Shown: positions 1 through 54,909 of the stretch, one piece after another | Layout of the letters: every line of letters starts with the position of its first letter | Position numbering within the stretch: position 1 is the first letter of the stretch | From: Turnera subulata | Taxonomy: Eukaryota > Streptophyta > Magnoliopsida > Malpighiales > Passifloraceae | Length of the DNA stretch: 64,000 nucleotides | NCBI GenBank assembly: GCA_028386065.3 | Contig: JAKUCV010005683.1 | Location: 273,324 to 337,323, forward strand | Direction: 5' to 3' | Notes under the pieces: model-generated | Databases searched by the model: none | Told to the model about the DNA's origin: nothing | What the model saw: the letters and a program-made list of their open reading frames with translations, nothing else | Position numbers and translations under genes: made by a program

Positions 1-1001
1 AGGCGCGACCCGACAACCCAGGAGCTCGCGACCCGGACACAACCCGCCCAAAGGATTCGGATCCTCACCTTGGGGACGGCGGCTACGGCGCAACGCAGCG
101 TGAGGATGGGTCACGAGGCGCGGCGAGGGGCGGCGACTCCAAGGGCGGTGCAAGCTCGGCGCGAGGCGGCGCGGTGGCTGAGCAGGGCGGAGGAGAGGCA
201 GATCCACGGGTCTGCTTGCGGGTCGTCGGCGCGTCAGGGCGGCTCCGGCGGTGGATCAGCTCGGCGACGACGGGGGTGAGCTCGCGACGGCATGGGCTTC
301 CTGCTGGCGGCGGCGGTGCGATGATCTACGGCGGGGAACGGCTTCATGTGCACAGTGACGAGAGGTGCAGCCGGGTGATGGTGAACAGTAACTTCCATTT
401 CCTTTTTCTTCATTTTCTTTTCTTTTTCTTGATTTTCTTCCCTTTTTCCGATTTTCTTCTTCTTCTTTTTTTTTCCTCTTTTCTTGTATTTATTTTTTTT
501 CCTCTTTCTTTTTCCTCTCTACTTTTTTTTTGTTTCTCTGATTTTCCCCCTTTTTTCTCTTTTTTATTTTCTTTCTCTTCTTTTTTTTCCTCTCTTTTTT
601 TTCTTTTTCTCTCTTTTTTCCTCTCTTTTTTTTTCTCCTTCCCTTCTTCCCCTCCGATTTCCTCTTCTTATAACGTGAAAATTACTGTTCAACCTGTGAT
701 TTACTATGCAGAGTGTGATTAACCAATAATGCAGGCGGGTCCGATCCGGACCAGAAAATAACTAATATCCCCTTAGTTATTTTCCGGTGTGATTTTCCGA
801 GAAATTCCGAAACTCGAAAAAATACCAACTTAGTTCCGAAAAATCCACGTAAAAATCACGAGCGCGGGAAAACCCTCGGTTTCGAAAAACGACTCCCGAT
901 TTACCTTGAATTAATTACCCAAGAATAATTCAATAGTAAATCACGGTAAAAAGACTTCTACAGTCCCGGTAAAAATCAAAAATTTTACCCGGGTTGTTAC
1001 A
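1..1001 (-). repeat. 3' LTR of element A, partial
   Basis: Nearly identical to 5237-6241. It contains a GC-rich block (about 1-360), a long polypyrimidine stretch on the plus strand (about 395-650) and the terminal CCCGGGTTGTTACA. The window starts inside the LTR. Plus-strand ORFs here are low-complexity translations and are not annotated as genes. Confidence 0.85.
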
Positions 1002-1017
1002 GTCTACCCACCTTAAA
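1002..1017 (-). promoter_or_regulatory. Polypurine tract of element A
   Basis: On the minus strand TTTTTAAGGTGGGTAGAC runs directly into the LTR start TGTAAC. Purine-rich AAGGTGGG next to an LTR is the usual plus-strand primer. Element B has the same tract at 12094-12110. Confidence 0.75.
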
Positions 1018-1145
1018 AAGAATTTCGTCCCCGAAATTCCGTCTTATCCGTGGGTCCTACCATGATAAGCTTCTGGCACACTCTGCCAGGTGTCCAACTT
1101 CAACATGAGATACCGCTTATACCCTTAAGCGACATCTCATCCGCT

Positions 1146-1153
1146 TATAAATA
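1146..1153 (+). promoter_or_regulatory. TATA box for antisense ORF-1 of element A
   Basis: TATAAATA lies 42 bp before the ATG at 1188. Element B has TATATAAAT at the equivalent place (12238-12246). A short untranslated leader lies between the box and the ATG in both copies. Confidence 0.6.
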
Positions 1154-1187
1154 CCAAACCTCATGACTGGCATACTCACACACAGTC

Positions 1188-1565
1188 ATGGACTCTCCAC
1201 TCCGATCTCGAACTACCTCAGACTCCGAGAAAAATAGCTACATCGGCGGCACAGCTTTCCCGACAAGCTCCGATGAAGAACCTCCCAAGAAGCGGTTCAA
1301 AACCAACATCATCGGCCTGAAGGAGCACATGGTCGTTTCCCCAAAACGACGAAAGAAGCGAGTCCCCAAGAAAGCTGATGACAAGAAAGGCAAGGCGGTA
1401 GCTGAGAGCAGCACTCCGCAGCAGAAACTTACGCAGCTGAACATCTCACTGAAGATGATCAGCTCGGCGGTAGCGCAAATCGAACTGGCGTGCGCGAAAC
1501 TGTTCCCACACATGAAGAACGTAGAAAGGCTTGTAAAAGATCTGGAGAAGCAAGTAACTCGATAG
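1188..1565 (+). CDS. Antisense ORF-1 of element A: small basic nuclear/coiled-coil protein
   Basis: This 125-residue ORF runs opposite to the element that contains it. I do not recognise the family. Visible parts: an acidic/Ser-rich N terminus (residues 1-32), a bipartite basic stretch PPKKRFK followed by KRRKKRVPKK (about 33-62) that looks like a nuclear localisation signal, and a helical C terminus (about 78-125) with heptad-like Leu/Ile/Val spacing that could form a coiled coil. Element B encodes the same protein (12279-12656) at exactly the same length with many silent differences, so it is real coding sequence. It has a TATA box upstream and AATAAA at 1603 downstream, so it is probably its own transcription unit. 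A DNA- or RNA-associated oligomeric protein is inference. Confidence 0.75.
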   Translation: MDSPLRSRTTSDSEKNSYIGGTAFPTSSDEEPPKKRFKTNIIGLKEHMVVSPKRRKKRVPKKADDKKGKAVAESSTPQQKLTQLNISLKMISSAVAQIELACAKLFPHMKNVERLVKDLEKQVTR

Positions 1566-1602
1566 AGTACTTCTTCTCCTGTTGTAAAACCATTATGAAA
1601 TT

Positions 1603-1608
1603 AATAAA
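1603..1608 (+). terminator. Possible poly(A) signal after ORF-1
   Basis: AATAAA lies 37 bp after the ORF-1 stop in an AT-rich tail. Element B has AATAAAATAAAA in the same place (about 12693). Confidence 0.4.
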
Positions 1609-2260
1609 ATAAATTTTCTTTTTAAATCAAAACTTCTTGTGTTATGAAATCTCTTGTTAAATGAAAAATAAAACATCTCAAGGCAAAATAAAACTTAACC
1701 ATAAAAATATAAAATCAAACATAAAGAAATCAAAAATAAAACTCGTTTAACAAAATCAAAACAAAAAGGAATTAAAATAAAACATATTTTCATGCTCGGC
1801 GCTCTAGATCGATCGTATCCATCCTCAATCCCGAGAAACGTAACGTACGCAGCTAACGGTGACGATCACGAGAGCGTCCTGCCCCTCGAAAGACACGTTA
1901 CCCACTTGTTCAAAAATTCTGCATGAGCCAAAAACGTCTGTCTCGTCTCGTATCTCTCCACGATGTCCGAACAGCTGAAAACTTGTCGCACATGCGCTCT
2001 ACTCGAGATGTGGTCCCATCCGTCAAGCCTCAATGGTCACGGATGCAAGTGATAAAAGATGCAAGAAAATAATGATAAACCATCAAAAGAAACGCCAAGG
2101 TAGCCAGGGCGTAAGAAATCGTGAGTCAGAAAAGAGCTGTAAAACACTGGCTTAGTAGCCCGAAAACGCGTAAAGTAACAAAGCATTAAATAAAGCAACG
2201 GTAAAATTCAAAAAGCAAAATCTTGAAAATCAAAAACGGTAATCACGATCCCCATAAGAG
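1609..2260. other. Spacer between the two antisense genes of A
   Basis: Non-coding. It is A-rich at first, then mixed composition. Parts match the spacer of element B (the CTCTAGATCGATCGTA motif, and a GTGATAAAAGATGCA motif near 2050). It diverges faster than the ORFs on either side. Confidence 0.5.
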
Positions 2261-2268
2261 TATAAAAG
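2261..2268 (+). promoter_or_regulatory. TATA box for antisense ORF-2 of element A
   Basis: TATAAAAG lies 102 bp upstream of the ATG at 2363. Element B has the identical octamer at 13705, 115 bp before its ORF-2. The sequence around it otherwise differs between copies (B has a long polypyrimidine insert), so the box stands out as conserved. Confidence 0.6.
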
Positions 2269-2362
2269 AAGGAGCAGTGATGTGTAAATCATCAAAGCAT
2301 TTTAAAAGCAACAAAACTCTCAGAAATACAAACCACAACGTTCAAAACAAAATACCCACACG

Positions 2363-3046
2363 ATGTCTGCTCCCTCATCAGTCTTCTTCGTCGAAGGTGC
2401 CAATCTTGGCAGGAGAAACCGGCTGGCGTACAGCATGATCAACGAACGTCCAGAGGAGCTTCCGAACGAGCTCGGCAGAATGCCTCGACTGGTCTTCGTC
2501 GACGAACTCTACTCGTCGCGGTTCTTCGTCACTCCCATGGAAGAGACCTTCTTCCTGGAGGACCATGGAACTCTGAGGACATCCTTCTACGGATCGGCAA
2601 ACTCCGTAATGTTCTTCATCTCCGAAAGACTACAGGAGTTCAACCTGGAGCCCACTTGCCAAACTGTGGAGCAAGGTACCTACTACCAGCTCTCGTTGAC
2701 GGCTCAGAGCATGCCCAGAATGACTCGATTACCTCCAACCTGGCCAAAGGCACGACTACTGGTGTGGAACTGCAGAGGAGTAGCAAGGCGTGCCCAGGAG
2801 TTCTCACGTACTCTGAGGGACCTGAAGAACCAATATAAGCCGAACATGGTTCTTCTGACGGAGACACAGTGGCAACCACGGGACGATCACGGTCTCTTCC
2901 CACTCCGGTTCCCTCAAGCTAACCGGTTCGAGATTCCTGGCCAGAACAACAGAGGCGGCATGTGGTTCTCTTGGAGCGACAGAGTCACGGTCAACATCAA
3001 CAACGACCCGAACAGTTTCCATGTCAACGTCGTTCCAAGGCGTTAA
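2363..3046 (+). CDS. Antisense ORF-2 of element A: chimeric protein with partial LINE-type endonuclease domain
   Basis: 227 residues, antisense to the element. Residues 1-120 are not recognised; they include PEELPNELGRMPRLVFVDEL. Residues 125-227 resemble the first third of the APE/EEP endonuclease of plant LINE retrotransposons: LLVWNCRG (catalytic Asn region), then KPNMVLLTET (catalytic Glu region), then a G-rich segment ending MWFSWSD..V.V. The later catalytic blocks (GDFN-like and SDH-like) are absent because the ORF stops first, so nuclease activity is unlikely. Element B has the same 684-bp ORF (13820-14503) with one nonsense codon. The start is the first ATG after the TATA box and matches in both copies. 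A nucleic-acid-binding role is inference. Confidence 0.7.
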   Translation: MSAPSSVFFVEGANLGRRNRLAYSMINERPEELPNELGRMPRLVFVDELYSSRFFVTPMEETFFLEDHGTLRTSFYGSANSVMFFISERLQEFNLEPTCQTVEQGTYYQLSLTAQSMPRMTRLPPTWPKARLLVWNCRGVARRAQEFSRTLRDLKNQYKPNMVLLTETQWQPRDDHGLFPLRFPQANRFEIPGQNNRGGMWFSWSDRVTVNINNDPNSFHVNVVPRR

Positions 3047-3314
3047 ATGTATTTTCTTTATTTTTATAAAATATCAAATATCAATTTAATGTTTCTGTCT
3101 TGTAATCAAAATATCAGTATTATTAATAATATTTGTATTTTCACTTATCTATGGTATCATTTACCTCATATGTGTATGTTCCGCGACAGCTGGCGTCCCT
3201 TGACTGGATCCATAATGCACTTAACTAAAATGATATAAAATAATAAACAAATGGAGCGAACTATGCAAACAAGACAACAAACACACAAAGACTGCCCAAA
3301 AAGACCTAACGCCC

Positions 3315-3326
3315 GCTCTGCTACCA
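3315..3326 (-). promoter_or_regulatory. Primer binding site of element A
   Basis: On the minus strand TGGTAGCAGAGC lies 3 bp inside the 5' LTR. It differs by one base from the usual plant tRNA-iMet site TGGTATCAGAGC. This fixes the element orientation as minus. Confidence 0.75.
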
Positions 3327-3329
3327 AAA

Positions 3330-6241
3330 TGAAACGCCCCGACCCGTATTTACCGTACCCAGTAAACACGTGCCGGAACTGTGACAATCCAACCCAACAA
3401 AGCCCAGCATACAGTGTATACAACAATAACTCGGGCTCAACAGCCCAAAAATAATAACAATAATAACAACATATCTGGCCCAAAGGCCCAATAATAGTAA
3501 AACAATGCACAGCGGAAGACTTTATTAACTCACAAACACTGTATGCGACACTGATGCAAACTATGGATCCAAGCCCTGTCCAAGGGATAACGCCGCAGCC
3601 TGTCTGGAATGCACCAATCCTGTACCAAAAATAACTCATTCCACGGGATGAAAGCCCGCAGGTGAGGGGTGAGTCCGAAGTGCTCACCGACGAATGAAAG
3701 ACAATCAATATGCACACTATAAAACTCAAGGTCCAAAAACAGGCATAAACCGCCAAATACATACCAAACCGAAAGACTGGACCCAAAACCCGGTCCAAGA
3801 CCAAAAAGACTCAAGTAAAATCCAATTATCCAATTTTATCTTTCCCCCGTCACGGATAAGACCTGGTTATCAACACATTCCGGGTGCCAGACCAAATCCA
3901 GAGAACCCAGGGATCGACATCCCAAAAATACGAACCCAGGGATAGACAACCCAAAAATATATCACGGGATAGATATCCCAAGCATAGACATGCTTATCAA
4001 GTAACCCAGTTCAAGGCCACCACGAAACAGTCTCTAACCATCGAGTCGTACCACTACTTATCACGTGACAATTATATTATCGTCGTCAAAATCAAATCAC
4101 AGGGATCGACATCCCTAACCAAGATACCGGGATAGACATCCCTATCCAGAAACCAAGGATCGACATCCTTGTCACAATTTATTAATTATTCCATTATACT
4201 CATGGTCAAGACACGAAAATAAATATTCAAACCCAATCAAAATACTGGGATAAACATCCCGACAACATTCAAGACCATGGGATTAACATCCCGAGACAAA
4301 CCACAACAAACACAATATTCAAGAATGCAATAATCCACAAAACAAAATAACCGAGTAATACAGGCACATATTGAAGGAAATCCATCCTCACCTTGGCCGA
4401 TTACTCAACTCCGGAAACAATGACCGGTCCGACGCCGGCTCCTCGGGAAACTGCCCGATATCAAACCTATACAACAAAACCATATATACACATAAATGCA
4501 CATAATCGGTATACTATGATGCCAAACTGCGAAACAACCCATCCCGGTTATATATCCTTTATTATTATCTTTTACCGAAAATAATTAACCATACGTACTT
4601 TCTAATATAATTTTGGTACCATACTTTCGTTAAAACTCCTTTCCAAAATATTTTCATAAAATACTTATAATCTTCCAAAGTAATAATCTACATAATTTTT
4701 CCAGAAAATAACAACCCATTTATAATTTTCATAAAATATTTACATAGTATTTATCTTTTCTAAATATATATAGTAATAATATTTTCCAACACAAAATATA
4801 ATTAACTTTAATTTCCAATATACATATTTATATACATATACCAAAATCATAATTTTCCAGACGAAATAATATACATATTAAATTTTCAGAAATTATTTTC
4901 AAGGTATACATATATATTTTCCAAACTAACCATAATAATAATTTACAAACAAAACTTAATTATCTATCAAAGTGTTTATACTTATATTTTCCTAAAAATA
5001 CCAGAATTATATTGTCCATAATTTTCTCAAAATAAATATATAATTTTTTTCTAAAATTATATATCAGATTATGTATAAATAAATATATATATGTAAATTG
5101 TTTGTTTTTAATTAAATGGGCTAGGCCATGAATAGTGTCGGCCCAGACTAAGGCTGCTGCCAAGCCCAACCCAACACCAAACAGCCCAAGCCCAACAGCA
5201 AAACCCAACAAACACAGCCCGATCCACAGAAATCCAAGGCGCGACCCGGCAACCCAGGAGCTCGCGACCCGGACACAACCCGCCCAAAGGATTCGGATCC
5301 TCACCTTGGGGACGGCGGCGACGGCACGACGCAGTGCGAGGATGGGTCACGAGGCGCGGCGAGGGGCGGCGACTCCAAGGGCGGTGCAAGCTCGGCGCGA
5401 GACGGCGCGGTGGTTGAGCAGGGCGGAGGAGAGGCAGATCCACGGGTCTGCTCGCGGGTCGTCGGCGCGTCAGGGCGGCTCCGGTGGTGGATCAGCTCGG
5501 CGATGACGGGGGTGAGCTCGCGACGGCATGGGCTTCCTGCTGGCGGCGGCGGTGCGACGATCTACGGCGGGGAACGGCTTCGTGTGCACAGTGACGAGAG
5601 GTGCAGCCGGGTGACGGTGAACAGTAACTTCCATTTCCTTTTTCTTCATTTTCTTTTCTTTTTCTTGATTTTCTTCCCTTTTTCCGATTTTCTTCTTCTT
5701 CTTCTTTTTTTCCTCTTTTCTTGTATTTATTTTTTTTCCTCTTTCTTTTTCCTCTCTACTTTTTTTTTTGTTTCTCTGATTTTTCCCCTTTTTTTCTCTT
5801 TTTTTTATTTTGTTATTCTTCTTTTTTTTCCTCTCTTTTTTTTCTTTTTCTCTCTTTTTTCCTCTCTTTTTTTTTCTCCTTCCCTTCTTCCCCTCCGGTT
5901 TCCTCTTCTTATAACGTAAAAATTACTATTCAACCTGTGATTTACTATGCAGAGTGTGATTAACCAATAATGCAGGCGGGTCCGATCCGGACCAGAAAAT
6001 AACTCATACCCCCTTAGTTATTTTCCGGTGTGATTTTTCGAGAAATTCCGAAACTCAAAAAAATACCAACTTAGTTCCGAAAAATCCACGGAAAAATCAC
6101 GAGCGCGGGAAAACCCTCGGTTTCGAAAAACGACTCCCGATTTACCTTGAATTAATTACCCAAGATTAATTCAACAGTAAATCACGGTAAAAAGACTTCT
6201 ACAGTCCCAATAAAAATAAAAAATTTTACCCGGGCTGTTCA
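3330..6241 (-). repeat. 5' LTR of element A
   Basis: About 2.9 kb. On the plus strand it runs from TGAAACGCCCCGACCC to CCCGGGCTGTTCA (terminal TTACA altered to TTCA). It contains the hairpin array (3910-4292), an AT-rich core (about 4600-5110), a GC-rich block (about 5240-5600) and a polypyrimidine stretch (about 5632-5900). No protein-coding capacity is supported. Long ORFs here are low-complexity. Confidence 0.85.
3910..4292. repeat. Array of GGGAT-NNAC-ATCCC hairpins in LTR A
   Basis: Inverted repeats with a 4-nt loop occur at 3910, 3939 (decayed), 3966, 4102, 4129, 4247 and 4279. Variant stems with compensatory changes occur at 3981 (AGCAT..ATGCT) and 4155 (AAGGAT..ATCCTT). The same array lies in both LTRs of element B. 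Confidence 0.8.
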
Positions 6242-6803
6242 ATGTTGATAACCAGGTCTGACCCCTAGCTTATCCGTGACGGGGCCCGGAAAGATAAAAT
6301 TGGAAAATTGGATTTTTGTTTTAGTCTTTTTGGTATTGGACCAGTTTTGGGTCAAGTTTTTGGTTTGGTATGTATTTGGTGGTTTTTACCTGTTTTGACC
6401 TTGAGTAATTTTAGTGTTGCATATTGATTGTCTATCCTTCGTCGGTGAGCACTTCGGACTCACCCCTCACCTGCAGGCTTTCATCCCGTAGGATGGATTA
6501 TTTGTTGTACAGGTTTGATGCATTCCAGACAGGCTGCAGCGTTATCCCTTGGACAGGACTTGGATCCATAGTTGCATCTTGTGTCGCATACAGTGTCTTT
6601 GTGAGTTATTAAGTCTTCCGCTGTGCATTATATTGCTATTGTTGGGCCATTGGGCCAATTATGATGTTGTTGATGTTTTTATTTTGGGCTGTTGTGCCCG
6701 AGTTACTGATGTATACACTGTATGCTGGGCTTGGTTTGGTTGGGTCGTCAGAGTTCCGGCACGTGTTTACTGTGTACGATAAATTCGGGTCGGGGCGTTT
6801 CAC
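6242..6803 (+). repeat. Truncated LTR of the A/B family in opposite orientation
   Basis: Reverse complement of roughly 3330-3862. It ends TCGGGGCGTTTCA at 6803, the 3' end of this LTR family read on the plus strand. No primer site follows, so it is the end of a 3' LTR or solo LTR. The rest lies left of the window, beyond element A, which appears to have inserted into it. To the right it directly abuts Helitron helicase coding sequence. Confidence 0.75.
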
Positions 6804-7206
6804 TCTCTATTGCAAACTGTTTTGCCATTGGTGCTTCATCCCACACAATAAGTCTTGTCTTTCCCATCAATTGTGCAGTTGAGTCTTGCTTTGACATTTT
6901 ACATGAATTTGTTTCATCAGTGATGATCGATCTATCGAAATCTGAGTGAGCAGTTCATCCACCAGGCATAGTTGCTGCTGCGACACCACATGTTGCCGTT
7001 GCAAGTGCTATCATCCCTCTAGATCTGACATTCGCAAGTAATAAACGATATAAAAATATTTTTCCTGTCCCTCTCAGGCCGTCTACAAAAAATATCCCAC
7101 TGTTTTCAAATTGTATTCTTTCCATAATCATCATGAAAGTAATCTCTTGTTCAAGGTTTAACTTGGTATGTGCTTTCGAATCTTCCAAAGGGATATCAAT
7201 TGACAT
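6804..7206 (-). pseudogene. Helitron PIF1-like helicase fragment
   Basis: The minus-strand translation has a Walker A-like motif GLRGTGKIFLYR (about 7060-7095; the canonical G and T are replaced by R and I), then ALATATCGVAAATMPGG. After a frame break it has the Walker B region LIVWDEAPMA (about 6806-6850). These are hallmarks of the Helitron RepHel helicase. The inverted LTR cuts the sequence right after DEAPMA, so the C-terminal helicase motifs are missing. Non-functional. Confidence 0.85.
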
Positions 7207-9114: not shown

Positions 9115-9119
9115 GTTAT
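9115..9119 (+). repeat. Left target-site duplication of element B
   Basis: GTTAT directly before the LTR; the same five bases follow the right LTR at 17727-17731. Confidence 0.9.
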
Positions 9120-12093
9120 TGAGACGGCCCGTCCCGTATTTACTAGCCACAGTAAACACATGCCGGAACTGTACAATAGTAAATACAACATGATACACGG
9201 CCCAGTGGCCCAAAGATAATATCAATGAATAAAGCAGAGAAACCGGCCCAACGGCCCAATGTAATCAAAATAAACATCAGAAATCTGGCCCTTCGGCCCA
9301 ACATCAAAACACATCACCCAAACCCGGGAACCCAAATTATAGCACAGTGGAAGCAATTTATCATTCTCAATAATAGTATGAAACCATGCAATGCAACATA
9401 TGGATCCAAGTCCAGCCCGAGGTAACGTCACAGCCGCCAAAATGCATTCGTACCTGAATCACAAATAACTCAACCTACGGGATGAAAGCCCGCAGGTGAG
9501 GGGTGAGTCCGAAGTGCTCACCAACCATGGATAGAAAAATAATATGCAACACTATAAAATACTCAAGATCGAAAACAGGCACAACAAAATATATCAATCC
9601 AAAAGACTCGACCCAAAACTGGTCCAAGACCAAAAAGACTTAAACAAAATCTAATTTCCAATTTTATCTTTCTGGGCCCGTCACGGATAAGCTAGGGGTC
9701 AGACCTGGTTCTCAACATATTCCGGGTGCCAGATCAAAACCAAGAGAGCCTAGGGATCGACATCCCAAATATAATCACGGGATAGACATCCCAAGCATAG
9801 ACATGCTTATCACAAGTAACCCAGAACATGGCCACCACAAAACAGTCTTAAACCATCGAGTCGTACCACTACTTACCACGTGACAATTATATCATCATCA
9901 TCAAAAACAAAATCTCAGGGATCAACATCCCTAACCAAAACACCGGGATAGACATCCCAATCCAAAACCAAGGATCGACATCCTTATCACATTTTATTAT
10001 TTAATCCGTTATTCTTTATACCAAAAAGACACAGGGATAAACATCCAAAAACTCAATGCATGGGGATAACATCCCAAAACCAAATCATGAGGATAAACAT
10101 CCCAAAATCAATCAAGGCACTGGGATAACCATCCCGAATCAAACCACAACAAATGCAACAATCAACAGTGCAGCAATCATCAAACACAACAACCGAGTAA
10201 TATAGGCACATATCAAAGGAAATCCATCCTCACCTTAGCCGATTACTCAACTCTGAAAACATCAATCGGTCCAAAGCCGGTTCCACAGGAACTGCTCGAT
10301 ATCGACTCCTATATAACAAATGCACACATAAGATGCACATAATAGGTATGCTATGATGCCACAAATTCTAAATTAAACCCCGTTGGTTATACGTCCCGGT
10401 TATATTTCATAAAATTATCTTTAATCGTTTTTAAATCCTTTTCCGAAAATAGTATATCGTACGTATATCCGAATATCACTTCGGTATTTAATACTTTAGT
10501 AAAACTCTTTTCAAAATATTTTTATGAAGATATTTATCATTTTCCAAAAATATAATTATCATAAAATAATTTTTCTAGAAAGATATGTATTTATATTTAT
10601 ATTTTTAAAATTATTTATATAAAATAATTATACTTCTCCAAAAATATAATTACTATAACATATTTTCCTGAAAATATAACGTATGCTTATAGTCCAAAAA
10701 TGTTTACAGTATATGTGTACTTTTCTAAAATAATTACTATACAGTAATTTTGCAAAGGATATAATTCATACTTTAATTACCATTGTTTTTTGAAAATAAT
10801 ATAACTTGATAATTACTTTTTTTATATTTACAAAATTACTATGTATTTATATTTCTCAGAATATATATATATATATTCCATATAACATTTTTTTCCAAAT
10901 TTTAAATGTATATATATAAGTTTTTATTATTATCTTTTTTTTAAAACAGACTCGGCCCGAACAGTGCTGGCCCAACCTACTACACAGGCCAACTCAGGCC
11001 CAAGCAGGAGCCCAAGGACAGGCCCGCGCAGCAGGCCCAGCACACAGCCTAGCAGCCCAGCAACCAGGCCAGGCGCGACCTGCCCATGGAAACGAGCTAA
11101 CCTGACCCGTCTGTCAACCCATCTGGGTCTGCTCACCTCGCTGAGCAAGACGGCAGCGGCACGGCGACGCGATGCGACGATCGACGTGCAGGCGGGAGGG
11201 CGACGGAGGCGAGGGTGACAGTCGAGTGGGGGCGGTGCGACACTGCGGCAGGAGGAGGGACGGGTTCGGGCAGCTTCGTCGGGTCGATCTCTAGGTGACG
11301 GCGACGAGGCGAGACGTGGATGGCAGCGTGTGGTGGTAGCGGTCGTGGCGAGGGCGGCAGCAGGCGGTTGTGGGGGTCGACGGTGGCGGCGAATAACTTG
11401 GGTGGCCTGCCTCTCGCCTCCCGGAAGCGACGTCGGCAAGGAGCAGAGGAAAGGGGAAGGAGAGGAGAAAGGGTGGCGCGAAAGGGAAGGGAGAGGTGGT
11501 GGTGTTGTGGTGGAGGTGTGGTCGGCGAGGTGGTGGCCCGGGCATGGGTCGTGGGTAGGAGAAGGAGAAAAGAGAGGAGGAAGGAAGGGGATGGAACGGG
11601 TTGTGTTACTTTTTTTTACTGGTTTGTGTCTTGGGTTTTTGCTGGAAGGAGAAAGATCAAGGCGTGAGAGGCTGGTTGCAGACAAAAGGAAGAAGAGCTG
11701 GGTTATAGGGTGAAAAGGCAAAAAGAAAAAGAACACAGGTGAGCATTACGGGTTCACAGGAGATCACATGCTTCACAGGAGAAAAGCGCCTCCTGCATAA
11801 TTGAGGCGGCTCAATTATGCAGAGCCGTGTCCAGACCGGACCAGAAAATAACTGATACCCCCTTAGTTATATTTCTGGTGAGATTTTTCTGAGGATTCCG
11901 GGACCCGAAAAATACCAACTTAGGTCCGAAAAATCCACGGAAAAAATCCCGAGCGCGGGAGAAACCTTGGTTTTGAAAAGCGATGCACGATTTACCTTGA
12001 ACTAATTACCTAAGATTAATTCATTCGGTAAATCACTGTATAACGACTTTTACAGTCCCGATAAAAATCCAAATTTTTACCCGGGTTGTTACA
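9120..12093 (-). repeat. 3' LTR of element B
   Basis: Plus-strand termini are TGAGACGGCCCGTCCC and CCCGGGTTGTTACA. It contains a hairpin array (9753-10135), an AT-rich core (about 10380-10950) and a GC-rich segment (about 10960-11600) that gives many spurious ORFs on both strands. Confidence 0.9.
9753..10135. repeat. Hairpin array in left LTR of B
   Basis: Same GGGAT-NNAC-ATCCC units as in LTR A, for example at 9753 and 9779, with the compensated variant AAGCAT..ATGCTT at 9793 and further units to about 10135. Confidence 0.8.
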
Positions 12094-12110
12094 TTCTACC
12101 CACCTTAAAA
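12094..12110 (-). promoter_or_regulatory. Polypurine tract of element B
   Basis: On the minus strand TTTTAAGGTGGGTAGAA abuts the LTR start TGTAACAACC. The adjacent minus-strand codons read NFEDEI..GRM-stop, which looks like the tail of a chromovirus pol ORF. Confidence 0.75.
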
Positions 12111-12237
12111 AAAATTTCGTCCTCGAAATTCCGTCTTATTCGTAGGTCCTACCATGATAAGCTTCTGGTATACTCTACCAGGTGTCCAAACTCAACGCGA
12201 GATACCGCTTATACCCTTATGCGACATCTCCTCCGCT

Positions 12238-12246
12238 TATATAAAT
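12238..12246 (+). promoter_or_regulatory. TATA box for antisense ORF-1 of element B
   Basis: TATATAAAT lies about 40 bp before the ATG at 12279, mirroring element A. Confidence 0.6.
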
Positions 12247-12278
12247 CGAACCTCATAACTGAGAACTCACTCTCAGCC

Positions 12279-12656
12279 ATGGACTCTCCACTAAGAACAA
12301 GAACCACCTCAGACTCCGAGGATAACAGCTATATCGGTGGTACTGCTTTCCCGACAAGCTCCAATGAAGAACCACCCAAGAAGCGGTTCAAGGCAAACAC
12401 CATCAGTCTGAAGGAAGCTATGGTGGTCTCCACAAGACAGCGAAAGAAGCATGCCAACAAAAAAGCTGAGGATAGAAAGGGCAAGGCAACTGCTCCCAGC
12501 GATACTCCACTGCAGATACTGACGCAACTGAACACTTCACTGAAGAAGGCCAGCTCGGCGGTGATGCAGATAGAACTGGCGTGTGCGAAACTCTTTCCCC
12601 ACATGAAAAACATCCAAAAGCTTGTAAAAGACCTTGAGAAGCATGTAACTCAATAG
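12279..12656 (+). CDS. Antisense ORF-1 of element B: small basic nuclear/coiled-coil protein
   Basis: 125 residues, collinear and gap-free with the copy in element A (1188-1565). The N terminus MDSPLR, the YIGGTAFPTSS block, the basic PPKKRFK motif and the C-terminal IELACAKLFPHMKN helix are all kept. Many differences between copies are third-position or synonymous (for example Gly and Pro codons). An open frame exists upstream of this ATG, but the TATA position and the match to A favour 12279. The frame is intact, while ORF-2 of the same element has a stop. Function unknown. Confidence 0.75.
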   Translation: MDSPLRTRTTSDSEDNSYIGGTAFPTSSNEEPPKKRFKANTISLKEAMVVSTRQRKKHANKKAEDRKGKATAPSDTPLQILTQLNTSLKKASSAVMQIELACAKLFPHMKNIQKLVKDLEKHVTQ

Positions 12657-13704
12657 AGTACATCTTTTCTGTATTGTAAAACTTTAAGAAAAAATAAAAT
12701 AAAACAACTTTTCTTTTAAAAAAAACTCTTATTAAGATATGAAAACTCATGTTCAACAGAAAAGCAAAATATTTTAAAGCAAAAAAAAACCATCAAGAAG
12801 GAAAATAAAATCAAACATAAAGATGTTAAGAAAAACAGAACCAACAAAAGGAAGCAAAACCAACATAAAGAAATTAAAAACAAAACAAAACTCGTTTTCA
12901 TGTTCAATGCTCTAGATCGATCGTACACGTCCTCGAACCCAAGAAAAACAACTCGTATAGCCAACGGAGATATCGGTTCTCCTTGTGAAAACGACATCTG
13001 TTAACTCGCAAGGAGATGATCACGAGAATGTCCTGTGTCCCTCAAAAGAAACGATATCCACCTGTCCACAAGCCAAAAACGTCTTCCAGACATCGTATCC
13101 CTCTATGATGTCCAAACAGGTGTAACCTTGTCGCACATGCACTCTACCCGAGGTACGGTCCCATCAATCTAGCCACAGCGGTCACGGATGCATGTGATAA
13201 AAGATGCAGGAAAAAGTTATAAAAAGAAACGCCAAGATAGCCAGGGCGAAAGAAAATTGTGAGATGGAGAAGAGCTGAAAAACACTTGCGTTTGTAGCCC
13301 CAAAATACACAAAGTGATGAAGCAATAAATGAGGCAACGACAAAATTTTTAAAAAGCAACACCTTGAAGAATGAAAACGGTTTGGAGATTTGTGAAAAAG
13401 AATCTACTTTTCCTATCCCCGAAAAATATTTTATTTTGTTTTCTTTTTCTTTTTCATTTCCATCTCCTCTTTTTTTTTCTTCTTCTTTTTCTTTCTTTTC
13501 TTTTTTTTACTGTTTTTTTCTCTTCCCTTTTCTTTTCTTTTACTTTATTATTTTTTTCTTCTCTTTTCTATTCCTTCTTATTTATTTTTTTTTCTTCTTT
13601 TCTCTTTTTTTTCTCCTCTTTTCTTTTACTCTCTTTTTTTTATTTTCTCTTTTTTTTTGGGAACAGGTGGGGTCTATATTTTCAAAAACAGGTAAATATT
13701 TTTC
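12657..13704. other. Spacer between the two antisense genes of B
   Basis: Non-coding. An A-rich tail follows ORF-1, then mixed sequence partly matching A's spacer. A plus-strand polypyrimidine tract at about 13435-13660 has no counterpart in A's interior. That tract gives a spurious Phe/Leu/Ser-rich ORF. Confidence 0.5.
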
Positions 13705-13712
13705 TATAAAAG
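13705..13712 (+). promoter_or_regulatory. TATA box for antisense ORF-2 of element B
   Basis: TATAAAAG lies 115 bp before the ATG at 13820 and is identical to the box in element A. Confidence 0.6.
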
Positions 13713-13819
13713 GCGAACAACGGAAAGCAAAAACCACAATGCATCCAAAAGACAACAAAACGCTCAGGCAAAGAAAACACAACGTTCAGAAAAAGAAAAA
13801 CACAACGCGTCGAGACAAC

Positions 13820-14503
13820 ATGCCTGCTCCATCATCCGTCTTCTTCGTCGAGGGTGCCTCAATCGGAAGAAGGAATCGGTTGGCCTACAGCCTGATCAAT
13901 GAACGTCCAGAGGAACTACCGAACGAGCTCGGCAGGATGCCTCGTTTGGTCTTCGTCGACGAACTCTACTCGTCGAGGTTCTTCGACACTCCCATGGAAG
14001 AGACGTTCTTCCTAGAGGACCAAAGCACCCTGAGGACCTCCTTCTACGGCTCGGCCAATTCCGTCATGTTTTTCATTTTTGAAAGACTTTAGGAATTCAA
14101 CCTAGAGCCCACTTGCCATTTCCTGGACCAAAGAACCTACTACCACCTTTCAATGACTGCCCAGAGCATACCCAGAGTATCTCGGTTACCACCAACTTGG
14201 CCAAAGGCCCGACTGCTGGTGTGGAACTGCAGAGGAATCGCTAGGCGTTCCCAGGAGTTTTTGCGTACCCTGAGGGACCTGAAGAACCAGTACAAGCCAA
14301 ACATGGTTCTTCTCACGGAGACCCAGTGGCAGCCTGAAGACGATCACGGTGTCATCCCACTTCGGTTCCCTCCAGCAAACCGGTTCGAGCTTCCTGGCCA
14401 GAACAACACGGGCGGTATGTGGTTCTCGTGGAACGATAGCATCAGGGTCAACATTAACAATGACCCTAATAGCTTCAGGGTCAACGTTGTACCAAGGAGA
14501 TAG
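13820..14503 (+). pseudogene. Antisense ORF-2 of element B with one nonsense codon
   Basis: 684 bp, the same length and frame as ORF-2 of element A. A TAG at 14090-14092 replaces a Gln codon (CAG in A). The C-terminal part (14153-14503) keeps LLVWNCRG, KPNMVLLTET and MWFSWND, the partial LINE-endonuclease signature. No indels occur over the whole length. The single point mutation suggests recent inactivation, or a readthrough/truncated product of about 90 residues. Confidence 0.7.
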
Positions 14504-14733
14504 ATAATTTAAATAATAATTATAATGTAATAATAATATCAGTATTATTAATAATATTTATGTTTCTGCATGTTTATGGAATCAATTACCTCTTATGTGA
14601 ATGTTCTGTGGCAAGCTGGCGTCCCTCGACTGGATCCATTATGTACTAAATAAATGATATAAATGCAAAATAATAAACATATGGAGCGAGCTATGCACAG
14701 CAAATAAGCAAAACAATCACCCAAGGACCTACC

Positions 14734-14752
14734 GCCCGCTCCGCTACAAAAA
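14734..14752 (-). promoter_or_regulatory. Primer-site relic of element B
   Basis: On the minus strand TTTTGTAGCGGAGCGGGCG follows the 5' LTR. Compared with A (TTTTGGTAGCAGAGCGGGC) it has lost one G of the TGG start, so priming may be weakened. Confidence 0.55.
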
Positions 14753-17726
14753 TGAGACGCCCCGACCCGTATTTACCAGCCTCAGTAAACACGTGCCGGA
14801 ACTGTACAATAGTACATACAACATGATACACGGCCTAGTGGCCCAAAGATAATATCAATGAATAAAGCAAAGAAAGCGGCCCAACGGCCCAATGTAATCA
14901 AAATAAACATCAGAAATCTGGCCCTTCGGCCCAACATCAAAACACATCACCCAAACCTGGGAACCCAAATTGTAGCACAGCGGAAGCAATTTGTCATTCT
15001 CAATAATAGTATGAAACTATGCAATGCAACATATGGATCCAAGTCCTGCCCGAGGTAACGTCAAAGCCGCCAAAATGCATCGTACCTGAATCACAAATAA
15101 CTCAACCTACAGGATGAAAGCCCGCAGGTGAGGGGTGAGTCCGAAGTGCTCACCAACCATGGATAGACAAACAATATGCAACACTATAAAATACTCAAGG
15201 TCGAAAACAGGCACAACAAAATATACCAATCCAAAAGACTCGACCCAAAACTGGTCCAAGACCAAAAAGACTTAAACAAAATCCAATTTCCAATTTTATC
15301 TTTCCAGACCCGTCACGGATAAGCTAGGGGTTAGACCTGGTTCTCAACATATTTCGGGTGCCAGATCAAAACCAAGAGAGCCCAGGGATCGACATCCCAA
15401 AATAGTAACCCAGGGATAGACATCCCAAATATAATCAAGGGATAGACATCCCAAGCATAGACATGTTTATCACAAGTAACCCAGATCATGGCCACCACAA
15501 AACAGTCTTAAACCATCGAGTCGTACCACTACTTACCACATGATAATTATATCATCATCATCCAAAACCAAATCTCAGGGATCAACATCCCTAACCAAAA
15601 CACCGGGATAGACTTCCCAATCCAAAACCAAGGATCGACATCCTTATCATATTTTATTATTTAATCTGTTATTCTTTATACCAAAAAGACAAAGGGATAA
15701 ACATCCAAAAACTCAAAGCACGGGGATAAACATCCCAAAACCAAATCATGAGGATAAACATCCCAAAATCAATCAAGGCACTGGGAAAAACATCCCGAAT
15801 CAAACCACAGTAAATGCAACAATCAACAGTGCAACAATCATCAAACACAACAACCGATTAATATAGGCACATATCAAAGGAAATCCATCCTCACCTTAGC
15901 CGATTACTCAACTCTGAAGACATCAATCGGTCCAAAGCCGGTTCCACAGGAACTGCTCGATATCGACTCCTATATAACAAATAACAAATGCACACATAAG
16001 ATGCACATAATAGGTATGCTGTGATTCCATAAATTGTAAATTAAACCCCCCTTGGTTATACGTCCCGGTTATATTTCATAAAATTATCTTTAATCGTTTT
16101 TAAATCCTTTTCCGAAAATAGTATATCGTACGTATATCCGAATATCACTTCGGTATTTAATACTTTAGTAAAACTCTTTTCAAAATATTTTTATGAAGAT
16201 ATTTATCATTTTCCAAAAATATAATTATCATAAAATAATTTTTCTAGAAAGATATGTATTTATATTTATATTTTCAAAATTATTTATATAAAATAATTAT
16301 ACTTCTCCAAAAATAAAATTACTATAACATATTTTCCTGAAAATATAAGGTATGCTTATAATCCCAAAATATTTATAGTATATGTGTACTTTTCTAAAAT
16401 AATTACTATATAGTAATTTTGCAAAGGATATAATTCATACTTTAATTACCTTAGTTTCTTGAAAATAATATAACTTGATAATTACTTTTTTTATATTTAC
16501 AAAATTACTATGTATTTATATTTCTCAGAAAATATATATATATTCCATATACCATTTTTTTCCAAATTTTAAACATATATATAAGTTTTTATTATTATCT
16601 TTTTTTTAAAATGGACTGGGCCCGAACAGTGCTGTCCCAACCCACTACACAGGCCAACTCAGGCCCAAGTAGGAGCCCAAGGACAGGCCCGCGCAGCAGG
16701 CCCAGCACACAGCCTAGCAGCCCAGCAACCAGGCCAGGCGCGACCCGCCCATGGAAACGAGCTAACCCGACCCGTCTGTCAACCCATCCGGGTCTGCTCA
16801 CCTCGCTGAGCACGACGGCAGTGGCACGGCGTGCAGGCGGGAGGGCGACGGAGGCGAGGGTGGCGGTCGAGCAGGGGCGGTGCGACACTGCGGCAGGAGG
16901 AGGGACGGGTCCGGGCAGCCTCGTCGGGTCGATCTCCAGGTGACGGCGACGAGGCGAGACGTGGATGGCAGGTAGCGGTCGTGGCGAGGGCGGCAGCAGG
17001 TGGTTGTGGGGTCGACGGTGGCGGCGAACAACTTGGGTGGCTTGCCTCTTGCCTCCCGGGAACGACGTCGGCAAGGAGCAGAGGAAACGGGAAGGAGAGG
17101 AGAAAGGGTGGCACGAATGGGAAGGGAGAGGTGGTGTGTTGTGGTGGAGGTGTGGTCGGCGCGGTGGTGGCTCGGGCATGGGTCGCGGGTAGGAGAAGGA
17201 GAAAAGAGAGGAGGAAGGAAGGGGATGGAACGGGTTGTGTTACTTTTTTTTTACTGGTTTGTCTTGGGTTTTTGCTGGAAGGAGAAAGATCAAGGCGTGA
17301 GAGGCTGGTTGCAGGCAAAAGGAAGAAGAGCTGGGTTATAGGGTGAAAAGGCAAAAAGAAAAAGAACACAGGTGAGCATCACGGGTTCACAGGAGATCAC
17401 ATGCTTCACAGGAGAAAAGCGCCTCCTGCATAATTGAGGCGGCTCAATTATGCAGGGCCGTGTCTAGACCGGACCAGAAAATAACTGATACCCCCTTAGT
17501 TATATTTCTGGTGTGATTTTTCTGAGGATTTCGGGACCCGAAAAATACCAACTTAGGTCCGAAAAATCCAAGGAAAAAATTCCAAGCGCGGGAAAAACCT
17601 CGGTTTCGAAAAGCGATGCTCGATTTACCTTGAATTAATTACCCAAGATTAATTCATTCGGTAAATTACTGTATAACGACTTTTACAGTCCCGGTAAAAA
17701 TCCAAATTTTTACCCGGGCTATTACA
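14753..17726 (-). repeat. 5' LTR of element B
   Basis: 2974 bp, near-identical to 9120-12093. The hairpin array is at about 15383-15800. GC-rich at about 16610-17230. It ends TTTTTACCCGGGCTATTACA and is followed by the GTTAT duplication. Confidence 0.9.
15383..15800. repeat. Hairpin array in right LTR of B
   Basis: GGGAT-NNAC-ATCCC units, starting with three close units near 15385, 15413 and 15438. This copy has one more unit there than the left LTR. Confidence 0.75.
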
Positions 17727-17731
17727 GTTAT
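17727..17731 (+). repeat. Right target-site duplication of element B
   Basis: GTTAT, the same as 9115-9119. Confidence 0.9.
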
Positions 17732-34791: not shown

Positions 34792-34893
34792 AGTAGTGCG
34801 TTTAAGAAACCTTGTGCAATTGTTGAGTCTTGTGTGCATTTTTACTTGTCATCATAAGTGCCTTGTATTCATGATGATTGATGTGAAGCTTCT

Positions 34894-35893
34894 TGTGAAG
34901 GCCCTCCCCCTGAGGGACCCACCAAATCCAGGTATTGTTACATCACTCCCTCTGCCCGATTAAATCCTTTACCATGCTGCAACACTAGGGATTCAAACTC
35001 GGGACGTGATGCTTTTTATCCCCCTCAAGGAGAGCACCTTCACCAACTCAGCTGCAGATGAATTGGTGAAGGTGCTCTCCTTGAGGGGGATAAAAAGCAT
35101 CACGTCTCGAGTTCGAATCCCTAGTGCTGCAGCATGGTAAAGGATTTAATCGGGCAGAGGGAGTGATGTAACAATACCTGGGATTGGTGGGTCCCTCGGG
35201 GAGAGGGGGAGGGCCTTCACAAAAAAGGAGCCCCCTCTCCCCGAGGGACCCACCAAACTTAGGTATTGTTACATCACTCCCTCCGCCCGATTAAATCCTT
35301 TACCATGCTGCAGCACTAGGGATTCGAACTCGGGACGTGATTATCCCCCTCGAGGAGAACACCTTTACCAACTCAGCTGCAGTTGCATTGGTAAAGGTGC
35401 TCTCCTCGAGGGGGATAAAAAGCATCACGTCCCGAGTTCGAATCCCTAGTGCTGCAGCATGGTAAAGGATTTAATCGGGCAGAGGGAGTGATGTAACAAT
35501 ACCTGGGTTTGGTGGGTCCCTCGGGCAGAGGGCCTTCACAAAAAAGGCGCCTTTTCTGTGAAGGCCCTCTCCCCGAGGGACCCACCAAACCCAGGTATTG
35601 TTACATCACATCCCTCAGCCCACACCTTTTCAAGGTTTAATCCTTTACCATGCTGCAGCACTAGGGATTCGAACTCGGGACGTGATGCTTTTTATCCCCC
35701 TCAAGGAGAGCACGATCTGCAGATGAGTTGGTGAAGGTGCTCTCCTTGAGGGGGATAAAAAGCATCACGTCCCGAGTTCGAATCCCTAGTGCTGCAGCAT
35801 GGTAAAGGATTAAACCTTGAAAAGGTGTGGGCTGAGGGATGTGATGTAACAATACCTGGGTTTGGTGGGTCCCTCGGGGAGAGGGCCTTCACA
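34894..35893. mobile_element. 1000-bp fold-back element built of three head-to-head tRNA-like units
   Basis: CTTCT duplications flank it (34889-34893 and 35894-35898). Termini are perfect inverted repeats starting TGTGAAGGCCCT. Inside are three consecutive units of about 320 bp, and each unit is itself an inverted repeat. The arms carry GAGTTCGAATCCCTAG (a polymerase III B-box-like motif) and, nearer each centre, TTGGTGAAGGTGCTCTCC (A-box-like). Arms end in GGGCCTTCACAAAAAA, like a short SINE tail. It could be tRNA-derived SINEs joined head to head, or a fold-back DNA transposon that took up a tRNA-like sequence. No protein is encoded. Confidence 0.65.
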
Positions 35894-41242: not shown

Positions 41243-41247
41243 TGCCC
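41243..41247 (+). repeat. Left target-site duplication of the copia element
   Basis: TGCCC, repeated at 49477-49481. It falls in E's polypurine tract. Confidence 0.9.
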
Positions 41248-42762
41248 TGTAAGTAACCGGGCATGCAAACTTGACAATCAAGAGCAGCGGAAAGACCCGG
41301 AAACCTTGGAGGATCCAAGTGAAGCAACTAAATCGAACAACAAAACGAACATACCTGAAACGGTTAGGATCTTTCACCTAACTGAAGAACAGCTAGAGCA
41401 AGAAGGATATCCTGCTCCTCTACGGTATCCACATGAACCGTCAATCACAAGCCGGAATCGTCTCACGATCTCCAACCCCCGAGCACTCCCGAACCGTGGT
41501 GCTAGCTACGGATTTCCGGGAGTTATGTGGTGTACCTTTGTTTCTCAAAGAATGTGTAAGTGTTTGTGTGTGTTCTTGCTGGTCTGAAAAACACTCTCAA
41601 GGCTCTCAAAAACCAGAATGCCATCAGCCAAAAACCCCGAGCATAATCTAATTATGCCACTCAATTAGTGCTTATGGTAATGGCCAACATAATGGCCCAT
41701 CATGATTAAGATACCCATTATCTTGTCTACCACTAAGCACTAATGGGATTACACATCACAAGCAATCAGGTTTGGCTCAATAATTCTGACAATTATTGAA
41801 TCAAACCAGCCCAAAACGACCCTGGTCCAACCATGGTCCAACCACACCTAGTCCAACCACGGTCCAACCACACCTGGTCGAACCATGGTCCAACCACGGT
41901 TCAACCACCTGCTCGAATCAACGGTTCTATGTGTGTGACCCTGTAGGCACTTGTAACGTCCGGCAATAATTGTAAAATCTCATTTTGCAATTATAAGCAA
42001 AGAGCGGCGTCTAGCAACACATCATTGCTACCCGAACGACAAGATCAGTACTGATTCTATATGCCTCGGAACATGTCATCGTCCTTTCGTCCCATTATCA
42101 AGATTAAACCGAGACATGGAAACGTCAATCTCGTATATGTTTAATCTTAGTTTCTTGATCCCCGAGTTAACTGTGTAAAACGGATCCTAATGATATCACC
42201 ATATCATATAATCCGAGCATGGCCATGCATTTACAGTTCAACTCTATCAAGAGGCCCATCTGATAATATACCCGTTATATGGGTCGGACGAATCCCATCT
42301 TGATCAATCAAAACCCACTACACATTTATCATATACCCAATGATTGTCCTTAAGTCCACCCAGTTACGGATGACTAGGAATAATATCAAAGTATACGACT
42401 CATATGTTGGGAACCTTGATGATCTCAGGTCTAAGGACAATACATATAAGAACCGCTATCGACAAACATACAACGTTCCATGTAGCATTCTTATGTGGGT
42501 CGGTCCAGTCCACAAGTTCTCTAACTTGTACCCGTATGTAGAATTCATATCACATATAAGTTCTCAACATACGCTAGTCTTAATTTATCATTACAACCCA
42601 TCCATAATAATAATCGACTAGGGACATTTTAAGAATACAAAGTATTCTATGGTTATAAATATGTGCAAGCGATTATCTCATAATCATATTTATTGGAATA
42701 ACCTCAATGTATATACATGACTACAATCATCCATTGATTGGCTTTTGGGCATATTACTAACA
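41248..42762 (-). repeat. 3' LTR of the copia element
   Basis: 1515 bp, TGTAAGTAACC to ATTACTAACA on the plus strand. It includes a run of GGTCCAACCA-like short repeats (about 41820-41910). Small ORFs shared with the other LTR reflect LTR identity, not coding function. Confidence 0.9.
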
Positions 42763-45700: not shown

Positions 45701-46431
45701 CTTCTTGCAATGGAAGCATTGACCTTCCTTTGCAACACCACCTTTGGGTTTCAGCACTTGTGAAGAAGATGCACCAAACTTTTTGGCAAATTTCTTCCCC
45801 TTGCCCTTACCCTTTCCCTTGCTACTTCCAACCATCATAATGCTGTTGGATTTGTTTGCCTTCATCTGTTGCTCAGCTGTTCTTAACATGTTGAGCAACT
45901 CAGACAAGGATTTGTCAAGATGATTCATTTTGAAGCTTATGACAAATTGGCTGTAACTATCCGACAACGATTGCAGGACTAGATCAAGAGCCAACTCCTT
46001 CTGCAAAGGAAAACCAAGACCCTCAAGGCTCTCAATGTATCCAATCATTTTGAGCACATGAGATCTTATGGGTGATGACTCAACCATCCTGCATTGGTAC
46101 AATGCCTTAGAGGTCTCATACCTCTCAGGTGTTCGATCACATCAAACGCCCCCAATTTCTCATTTGCTTCTGAAGCTCAGAGTCCATGGTTATAAGCATA
46201 AAGCATGATGCATCCAATGCATCATCAAGAAGCTTCTTGTAAGCATCCCTTCCTGCCCTAGAAGCACTAGGCGCCGGTTCATTTGCAACAGGCCCTTCGA
46301 GGACATACAATTTATTTTTCTTGAATGAGGACTATCCTCAAATTACGATACCATTTTATGAAGTTATTCCCATTCAGTTTTTCCTTCTAAAGGACCGATC
46401 GCAGTGATATTGTGATAGTATTTTGTGCCAT
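42783..46431 (-). pseudogene. Copia gag-pol polyprotein, inactivated
   Basis: Domains in minus-strand order: gag from ATG at 46431 (MAQNTITISL, then LNGNNFIKWYRNLRIVL and AYKKLLDDALDASCF); CCHC zinc knuckle CFHCKKSGHWKRNC (about 45690); protease VSDTGCGFHIC (about 45560); GAG-pre-integrase LWHCRLGH (about 45190); integrase with HSDVCGP, then WNGVSERRNRTLLDMVRSMM; RT with MDVKTAFLNGNL and LLYVDDILLIGND; RNase H with GSIMYAMQCTRPDVAYA and YTDASFQTDRDDF. Stops occur in gag, at about 44868, about 44796 and 44029-44031, with frameshifts near 46140, 45050 and 43250-43450. The length and order fit copia. Not functional; Tork/TAR-like lineage possible but unproven. Confidence 0.9.
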
Positions 46432-47969: not shown

Positions 47970-47970
47970 C

Positions 47971-54400: not shown

Positions 54401-54909
54401 GAGAAAGAAAAAGTAAAGAGGTCTGTTGGGGGTGACGGTTGCAGTATCGTGGGGAGTGAGGGTGAGCCATCGGAAGAGAAAAGAAAAGAAAAGGAAGGAG
54501 AGAGAGAGAAGAAATGACGTTTATATACCTAGACGAACCCTAGGATTCGGCCGTACACAAAACTGCGTCGTTTCGCCTTTCCCAGCATCTCAGGTCAACG
54601 CGCTTATGTGACCTAGTCAAAGCACCAGCTTCCTTTGAGTTTAAAGCCTTGACACTCCCAAAACTACGTAGTTTTAATAAAACTACTATGTACTCTTTGT
54701 TTTACCCCGAAACTCCAATCGTTCTCACAGAAACCGACTAAGAATTAATTCCAGAAGTAATAAAACATTCCAAGAAAAATAAATTAATAACAATAATAAT
54801 TTTCTTGACTTAAAATACCCGGAAATTCCATAAGGGTAAAATTGGAAATAAAATTTCAAAAATTCCGAAAATCCATAAAAGTTAAATACCGAAAATCCGG
54901 GGCATTACG
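51460..54909 (-). repeat. 3' LTR of element C
   Basis: 3450 bp, starting TGAAACGCCCGAGTCCC. The terminal CA is mutated to CG. It contains an AG/GA-rich stretch (about 52127-52195) and a partial tandem duplication (53008-53231 repeated at 53232-53415, the second copy lacking about 45 bp). A 98-codon ORF in both LTRs is explained by LTR identity. Confidence 0.85.

Follow-up and report, generated by a model that had tools for sequence, protein, structure and literature searches.

Antisense accessory ORFs in LTR retrotransposons

A survey of extra ORFs was reportedly made by Steinbauerova et al. (2011). In the Tat/Retand group, antisense accessory ORFs are established (PMC7264820, PMC11963269): antisense TRP28 ORFs were described in 97% of Retand clusters, and at least one standard domain is absent from 10 of the 63 Retand clusters (PMC11963269). 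The antisense ORF of Grande has its own promoter and encodes a nuclear protein; what plant antisense accessory ORFs do is left open in the consulted parts of both papers (PMC7264820, PMC11963269). PvRetro13 is another element with an antisense ORF (PMC7264820). Other ORFs have been acquired as well, such as a demethylase ORF in Ty3/gypsy elements of orchids (PMC9289625) and further ORFs in elements of bdelloid rotifers (PMC5408684). Among chromoviruses, Tekay/Del elements of sunflower (group 2), maize, sorghum and rice carry an extra ORF upstream of gag (PMC11728184).

Here we analyse a window of 64 kb (the whole stretch of DNA studied), the first 18 kb of which contain two LTR elements, A and B. 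Each internal region contains two plus-strand ORFs, in the same order in A and B and antisense to the element. The initial annotation had pointed to antisense ORFs in Grande as a precedent, and the published descriptions of Grande and its kin bear this out (PMC7264820, PMC11963269). Like Tat/Retand elements, A and B have a conserved coding ORF that is antisense and adjoins the 3′ LTR (as judged from one A/B pair); Tat/Retand elements keep pol, whereas A and B lack gag-pol and have a primer-binding site (PBS) and a pol stump that appear to be of chromovirus type. For neither ORF of either element did Pfam list the TRP28 domain (PF04195) at E up to 1.

The extra ORF of Tekay/Del resembles what is predicted for the A/B system in its chromovirus lineage and in its nuclear-type, largely disordered product, which in maize and sorghum has a long C-terminal helix; it differs in being a single plus-strand ORF (402 aa in sunflower) in elements that keep gag-pol, whereas A and B have an antisense pair without gag-pol, the comparison being one of descriptions (PMC11728184). 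In PMC6317226, none of six terms for antisense or additional ORFs occurs. Antisense accessory ORFs as such are already known; among the papers listed in our literature searches, in the parts consulted, we found no antisense ORF in an element of chromovirus type or in one wholly devoid of gag-pol (the lineage of PvRetro13 is not given there); an antisense pair in an element that is both is new in that scope.

Structure and lineage of elements A and B

Both elements are oriented on the minus strand, as follows from a PBS-like sequence at one LTR edge and a purine-rich tract with a pol stump at the other. The parts of the two elements are as follows.

1–1001, minus strand: inner part of the 3′ LTR of A, 96-97% identical to 5237-6239, ending in ...TGTTACA; the remainder precedes the window
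1002–1039, minus strand: purine-rich tract and pol stump EFRGRNSF* of A, adjoining the 3′ LTR
1002–3329: internal region of A
3315–3326, minus strand: PBS-like site TGGTAGCAGAGC (reverse complement of 3315-3326), adjoining the LTR edge at 3330
3330–6239, minus strand: 5′ LTR of A
9120–12093, minus strand: 3′ LTR of B
12094–14752: internal region of B
12105–12131: pol stump EFRGRNFF* of B, counterpart of EFRGRNSF* in A
14753–17726, minus strand: 5′ LTR of B

Element B is flanked by the 5-bp target duplication GTTAT (9115-9119 and 17727-17731) and so combines the paired LTRs and target-site duplication of a LARD-like element; the outer 3′ end of A lies outside the window. Divergence K within LTR pairs is 0.035 for A (1001 bases present) and 0.043 for B. 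Between A and B, K is 0.44 for the LTRs, 0.25 for ORF1 and 0.19 for ORF2. A block of 43 bases is identical between the otherwise ∼67% alike LTRs (3646-3688 in A, 15112-15154 in B).

Judged by ORF length, neither internal region has a further ORF above 117 aa and thus none of gag-pol size; the sole pol remnant in each element is the 9-codon pol-like stump. The loss of gag-pol and the non-autonomous state proposed in the initial annotation agree with this. We take EFRGRNSF* and EFRGRNFF* to be the end of a Tekay/Del pol, and TGGTAGCAGAGC presumably resembles the initiator-Met tRNA site. The Met-type PBS and the long LTRs (2.9-3.0 kb) support Tekay/Del and do not define membership; Del LTRs in sugarcane measure 2762-5139 bp (PMC3352295). 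An assignment to Tekay/Del fits the stump, the PBS and the LTR length, in elements that have no reverse transcriptase, integrase or chromodomain. We assign A and B to a single family of LTR retrotransposons that are non-autonomous and probably derived from chromoviruses.

Small gaps aside, the two elements can be aligned from the pol stump into ORF1 and once more between the end of ORF2 and the PBS. Given the same stump and the matching flanks of the cassette, the simplest reading is that gag-pol loss is older than the A/B split; gag-pol was thus probably lost before A and B separated, in which case the constraint on the ORFs described below would have acted inside a non-autonomous lineage. 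A different history would have the cassette selected in an autonomous sister family, with A and B as separate deletion derivatives in which the ORFs merely ride along. Non-autonomous elements often arise by deletion, and the helper is not in view; on the other hand, the shared stump and the shared run from ORF2 to the PBS would call for two deletions ending at matching places, and we regard this history as unlikely.

At 6243-6802 and 6955-7206, a reversed LTR fragment, 86% like the LTR edge of A, adjoins that element; it is followed by a match to PIF1 helicase (E 9.2e-17), perhaps a Helitron remnant. Farther along the window, minus-strand frames at 43456-46141 resemble Ty1/copia gag-pol by eye and lie between repeats at 41247-42762 and 47970-49476. 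A cluster of 150-200-bp repeats, some direct and some inverted, with arms 92-100% complementary, lies at 34890-35893. An endogenous caulimovirus-like insertion occupies 59650-62869, with matches to peptidase A3, reverse transcriptase and RNase H in one frame and Cauli_VI in the next; direct repeats of ∼3.3 kb, 95-96% identical (51460-54908 and 56357-59627), end just before its frames.

The ORF pair and its conservation

The two genes opposite to the element that the initial annotation had reported, in the same order in A and B, were found colinear on the plus strand.

1188–1565, plus strand: ORF1 of A, 125 aa, predicted basic part and C-terminal coiled coil
2363–3046, plus strand: ORF2 of A, 227 aa; residues 134-222 resemble the first half of Exo_endo_phos, and nothing matches the N-terminal part
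12279–12656, plus strand: ORF1 of B, 125 aa; an in-frame ATG upstream, at 12219, precedes the TATA box
13820–14503, plus strand: ORF2 of B, equal in length to that of A, with an in-frame TAG at codon 91 (14090-14092)

Protein identity between A and B is 77% for ORF1 and 85% for ORF2. The lengths of 378 and 684 bp are indeed identical in the two elements, as had been noted; an intact ORF2 in B is ruled out by codon 91, which reads TAG there and CAG in A, so that three of the four frames are open. ORF1 is overlapped by a minus-strand ORF (91 aa in A, 94 aa in B). In a tblastn search of the window, the ORFs had matches beyond A and B only at E 0.22 or worse.

The chance occurrence of ATG ORFs was assessed in 500 dinucleotide shuffles of each internal region. 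For A, ORFs of at least 227 codons were found in 0/500 shuffles and ORFs of at least 125 codons in 44/500; for B, the counts were 1/500 and 26/500, respectively. Since 44 shuffles of A reach 125 codons, the length of ORF1 is by itself unremarkable; it is conservation that carries the coding case, a judgement made from sequence comparison.

Selection was measured on a single pair of copies (A versus B) from one genome by the NG86 method with bootstrap, using 125 codons of ORF1 and 226 codons of ORF2 (stop codon left out). For ORF1, dN is 0.145 and dS 0.768, with dN/dS 0.189 (bootstrap 95% 0.108-0.323); for ORF2, the values are 0.080, 0.671 and 0.119 (0.074-0.18), and its two parts taken separately give 0.113 and 0.128. 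For this one pair, the check put forward with the initial annotation, dN/dS of both ORFs, gives ratios far below 1. Differences fall on codon positions 1/2/3 as 17/19/44 in ORF1 and 24/11/76 in ORF2. No gap occurs in 1062 aligned coding bases (354 codons), compared with 458 gap columns in the spacer, leader and 3′ parts. Subtraction by hand of the neutral time since insertion (∼0.039) lowers the ratios to ∼0.14 (ORF1) and ∼0.07 (ORF2), as arithmetic without a fitted model. Low ratios are also obtained in the reverse frame sharing third positions (0.235 for ORF1 and 0.216 for ORF2, after 2 and 9 stop codons, respectively, had been skipped); in the remaining control frames the ratio is 1.1 or more.

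When the observed changes were shuffled, with number and kind of change preserved (neighbour effects were not), a ratio as low as the observed one appeared in 0/2000 shuffles for each ORF, and the shuffles created on average 2.5 stops in ORF1 and 3.7 in ORF2 against 0 and 1 observed. Frames that arose by chance or are decaying could account for the ordinary length of ORF1 and for the stop in ORF2 of B; with the shuffle test of dN/dS and the stop counts against them, such frames are extremely unlikely, and we rejected chance ORFs. The data suggest that purifying selection kept both proteins between A and B. The ORFs are very probably selected antisense protein-coding genes of the element; the selection may also have served the host.

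Promoter-like and polyadenylation signals

Signals that would serve transcription of the ORFs lie on the plus strand.

1146–1153, plus strand: TATA box of ORF1 in A, TATAAATA; counterpart TATATAAA at 12238 in B
2261–2268, plus strand: TATA box of ORF2 in A, TATAAAAG; counterpart TATAAAAG at 13705 in B
1603–1613, plus strand: two overlapping AATAAA (1603, 1608) after ORF1 of A; counterparts at 12693 and 12698 in B

The initial annotation had assigned the same TATA boxes to A and B. This stands for ORF1, whose boxes are opposite each other in the A/B alignment; the ORF2 boxes correspond by distance and not by position in the MAFFT alignment. Each of the latter is 48 nt upstream of CAACAAAACxCTCAG, common to A and B (a hand count on the leaders), and because of this equal distance we regard the two as one and the same box. 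The plus strand of the first 18 kb has 20 occurrences of TATAAA[AT], which makes the TATA boxes alone weak evidence. The poly(A)-like signal annotated for ORF1 was recovered in both elements, with AATAAA ∼40 nt past the end of the ORF; after ORF2, an AATAAA common to both is found ∼200 nt downstream in A (3242) and ∼170 nt downstream in B (14672).

The spacer between ORF1 and ORF2 has diverged overall, as reported earlier, and has done so unevenly. Positions 1978-2202, upstream of the ORF2 TATA box, are still 80-83% identical between A and B, more than their surroundings, and possibly represent a promoter region. Also upstream of the ORF2 TATA box, B has a pyrimidine-rich segment (13429-13658) that is absent in A and resembles T-rich parts of the LTRs of A.

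Predicted protein products

The ORF1 protein has a pI of 10.1, with basic clusters at residues 34, 53 and 66. A structure model built on an alignment of two sequences contains one helix (residues 77-124), with mean pLDDT of 91-93 in blocks of residues 81-120. Hydrophobic residues occupy 13 of the 14 a/d heptad positions in both copies (P ∼1e-4 after correction for seven phases). The model predicts an unfolded basic part followed by a C-terminal coiled coil; judged by eye, the basic part looks like a nuclear signal. In Pfam, ORF1 of A had only weak matches to COG3_N and XhlA (E 0.18-0.19), far under the cut-off, and a search of a protein database (possibly poor in plants) gave nine candidates, none at E 0.001.

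A retroelement protein of comparable arrangement is HBZ of HTLV-1, a zipper protein encoded in antisense, by which LTR activity is regulated (PMC10186651). Both are antisense products of a retroelement with a zipper or, as predicted for ORF1p, a coiled coil at the C terminus, a likeness by analogy only (PMC10186651). HBZ is a bZIP protein started from the 3′ LTR, whereas ORF1p has a Pro-containing stretch between basic part and coiled coil. A bZIP identity for ORF1p was considered and rejected, since Pfam listed no bZIP domain for A or B down to the limit of E 1.

Exo_endo_phos (PF03372) is an AP-endonuclease-type domain that is present in LINEs too. In the ORF2 protein, the first 132 residues matched nothing in Pfam, and residues 134-222 match positions 2-95 (of 225) of the Exo_endo_phos profile with E 0.0052. 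Isolated pieces give E 0.00077 (A) and 0.0014 (B); the scores of these matches, 17.0-19.7 bits, all lie below the Pfam gathering cut-off of 24.5. The match stops at profile position 95 or earlier, short of a complete domain, and the second half is absent at the same end in A and B. Asn136 and Glu167 presumably occupy the positions of the first two metal-site motifs. The C-terminal part of ORF2p is thus likely the first half of an Exo_endo_phos domain, which we infer to be a half-domain without catalysis; ORF2 as an active nuclease was ruled out, only half of the domain being present. The structure model of ORF2 (mean pLDDT 34.8) is useless for the fold.

Further homologue searches yielded little. 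With ORF2 of A, 82 candidates came from the protein database (possibly poor in plants), none at E 0.001; with the ORF2 alignment, just one of the 1719 candidates came in at E 10 or below, namely P0001 (E 0.028), a sequence of 84 residues with the source ‘lgn’ and without Pfam match. Matches among PDB sequences were weak and apparently unrelated (E 0.19-0.83), and viral contigs gave 1 and 14 pattern matches with no relative among them.

The endonuclease-type piece likely present at the end of ORF2 would suit another explanation, namely that the ORFs are captured pieces of host or LINE genes and that it is the antisense RNA, not a protein, that matters, through double-stranded RNA control of the sense transcript. 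Antisense RNA control has been discussed for such elements (PMC7264820). A function at the RNA level does not predict the third-position bias or the lack of any indel in 354 codons, and we consider this explanation very unlikely. Elements A and B probably produce proteins that they themselves encode.

A palindrome array in the LTRs

The palindromic 14-mer GGGAT-N4-ATCCC, absent from the initial annotation, is arrayed 8-10 times in each of the three complete LTRs (sites counted with at most two mismatches).

3910–4292, minus strand: palindrome array in the 5′ LTR of A, 8 sites
9753–10135, minus strand: palindrome array in the 3′ LTR of B, 9 sites
15385–15796, minus strand: palindrome array in the 5′ LTR of B, 10 sites

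The three LTRs have 6, 5 and 5 exact sites, whereas their shuffles average 0.01, 0.0 and 0.02 (maximum 1); beyond these LTRs, the 64 kb window has none. The excess is smaller for two-mismatch sites, of which there are 9-10 against shuffle means of 1.7-1.8 and maxima of 6-7; outside the arrays, the 64 kb contain 12 places that come within two mismatches, including two (3433, 5288) in the 5′ LTR of A. In 25 of the 27 copies the loop reads GTYN on the sense strand, which gives the array a direction. Sites are spaced by 26-32 bp in 18 of 24 cases, and TRF units are 26-29 bp. Among copies within one LTR, the motif columns are 81-85% identical, compared with 36-49% for the 13-nt flanks; between A and the right LTR of B, agreement is 105/112 (94%) in motifs and 227/283 (80%) between motifs. 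A sense start site of the LTR was not locatable by eye on the A/B LTR alignment.

In Arabidopsis, VANC proteins of VANDAL elements bind dense short motifs in the noncoding DNA of the element and remove silencing (PMC5735166, PMC10398659). The likeness to A and B consists in an element-coded protein accompanied by dense directional motifs spread by tandem repetition (PMC5735166, PMC10398659). VANDALs are DNA transposons, the VANC motif YAGTATTAY is no palindrome, and what A and B show of such a system is the motif array.

The main competing explanation takes the array as hairpins of the sense RNA, used in packaging or dimerisation and read by the Gag of a helper, with the ORFs unrelated to it. 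Packaging signals are indispensable to a non-autonomous element, and the array region of A folds with z -2.0 (2/100 shuffles as low). Some stems have changed on both sides under a kept GTYN loop: AAGGAT/ATCCTT and AAGCAT/ATGCTT. The former occupies an orthologous position in the three LTRs and may be a single event; the latter, AAGCAT-GTCT-ATGCTT, is perfect in two of the three LTRs and differs on one side in the right LTR of B. Other copies break a stem pair, and the nine non-Watson-Crick cells in five stem pairs of 27 copies (two being G-U in RNA) disfavour a strict hairpin. As a whole explanation, this one is doubtful, though the strongest of the alternatives. As regards the array itself, its sequence would suit a dyad site for a protein as well as a hairpin in RNA; it is compatible with a helper or anti-silencing role and, to the same degree, with an RNA packaging signal.

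A working model and its implications

We propose, as a working model likened to VANC or HBZ with no claim of membership in either, that the internal region consists almost wholly of an accessory cassette, whose two genes are transcribed from antisense promoters belonging to the cassette. ORF1p would enter the nucleus and form coiled-coil dimers or oligomers; ORF2p would serve in binding, as half of an exonuclease-endonuclease-phosphatase fold that lacks catalysis. The two proteins would work in trans, their target being DNA or RNA of the family itself, perhaps via the LTR array, and so favour expression or helper-driven mobilisation in an activator or anti-silencing role. Of the readings considered, a trans-acting accessory role of some kind for the element is the one we find most likely, with chances that seem to us evenly balanced. 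That one element combines a basic, probably dimeric protein with a dyad array that has a direction suggests, without proving it, that the two meet; a specific link of the proteins to the array, a candidate target, is nonetheless rather unlikely. The full proposal, that a coiled-coil nuclear protein and a half-endonuclease partner recognise the LTR palindromes of the family and lift silencing or secure packaging, is a speculative one that we hold to be unlikely. If it were true, a parasite of a parasite would bring its own VANC- or HBZ-like controller.

Non-autonomous elements are usually viewed as passive riders that keep only the signals read by a helper. A gag-pol-less family in which purifying selection has maintained two proteins as far as dS ∼0.7, as the A/B pair suggests, contradicts this view and raises the question of which cis-preference or shared benefit preserves such genes. 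With its small two-gene system and a candidate target in the LTR array, the family would offer a test case for the antisense accessory ORFs of plants.
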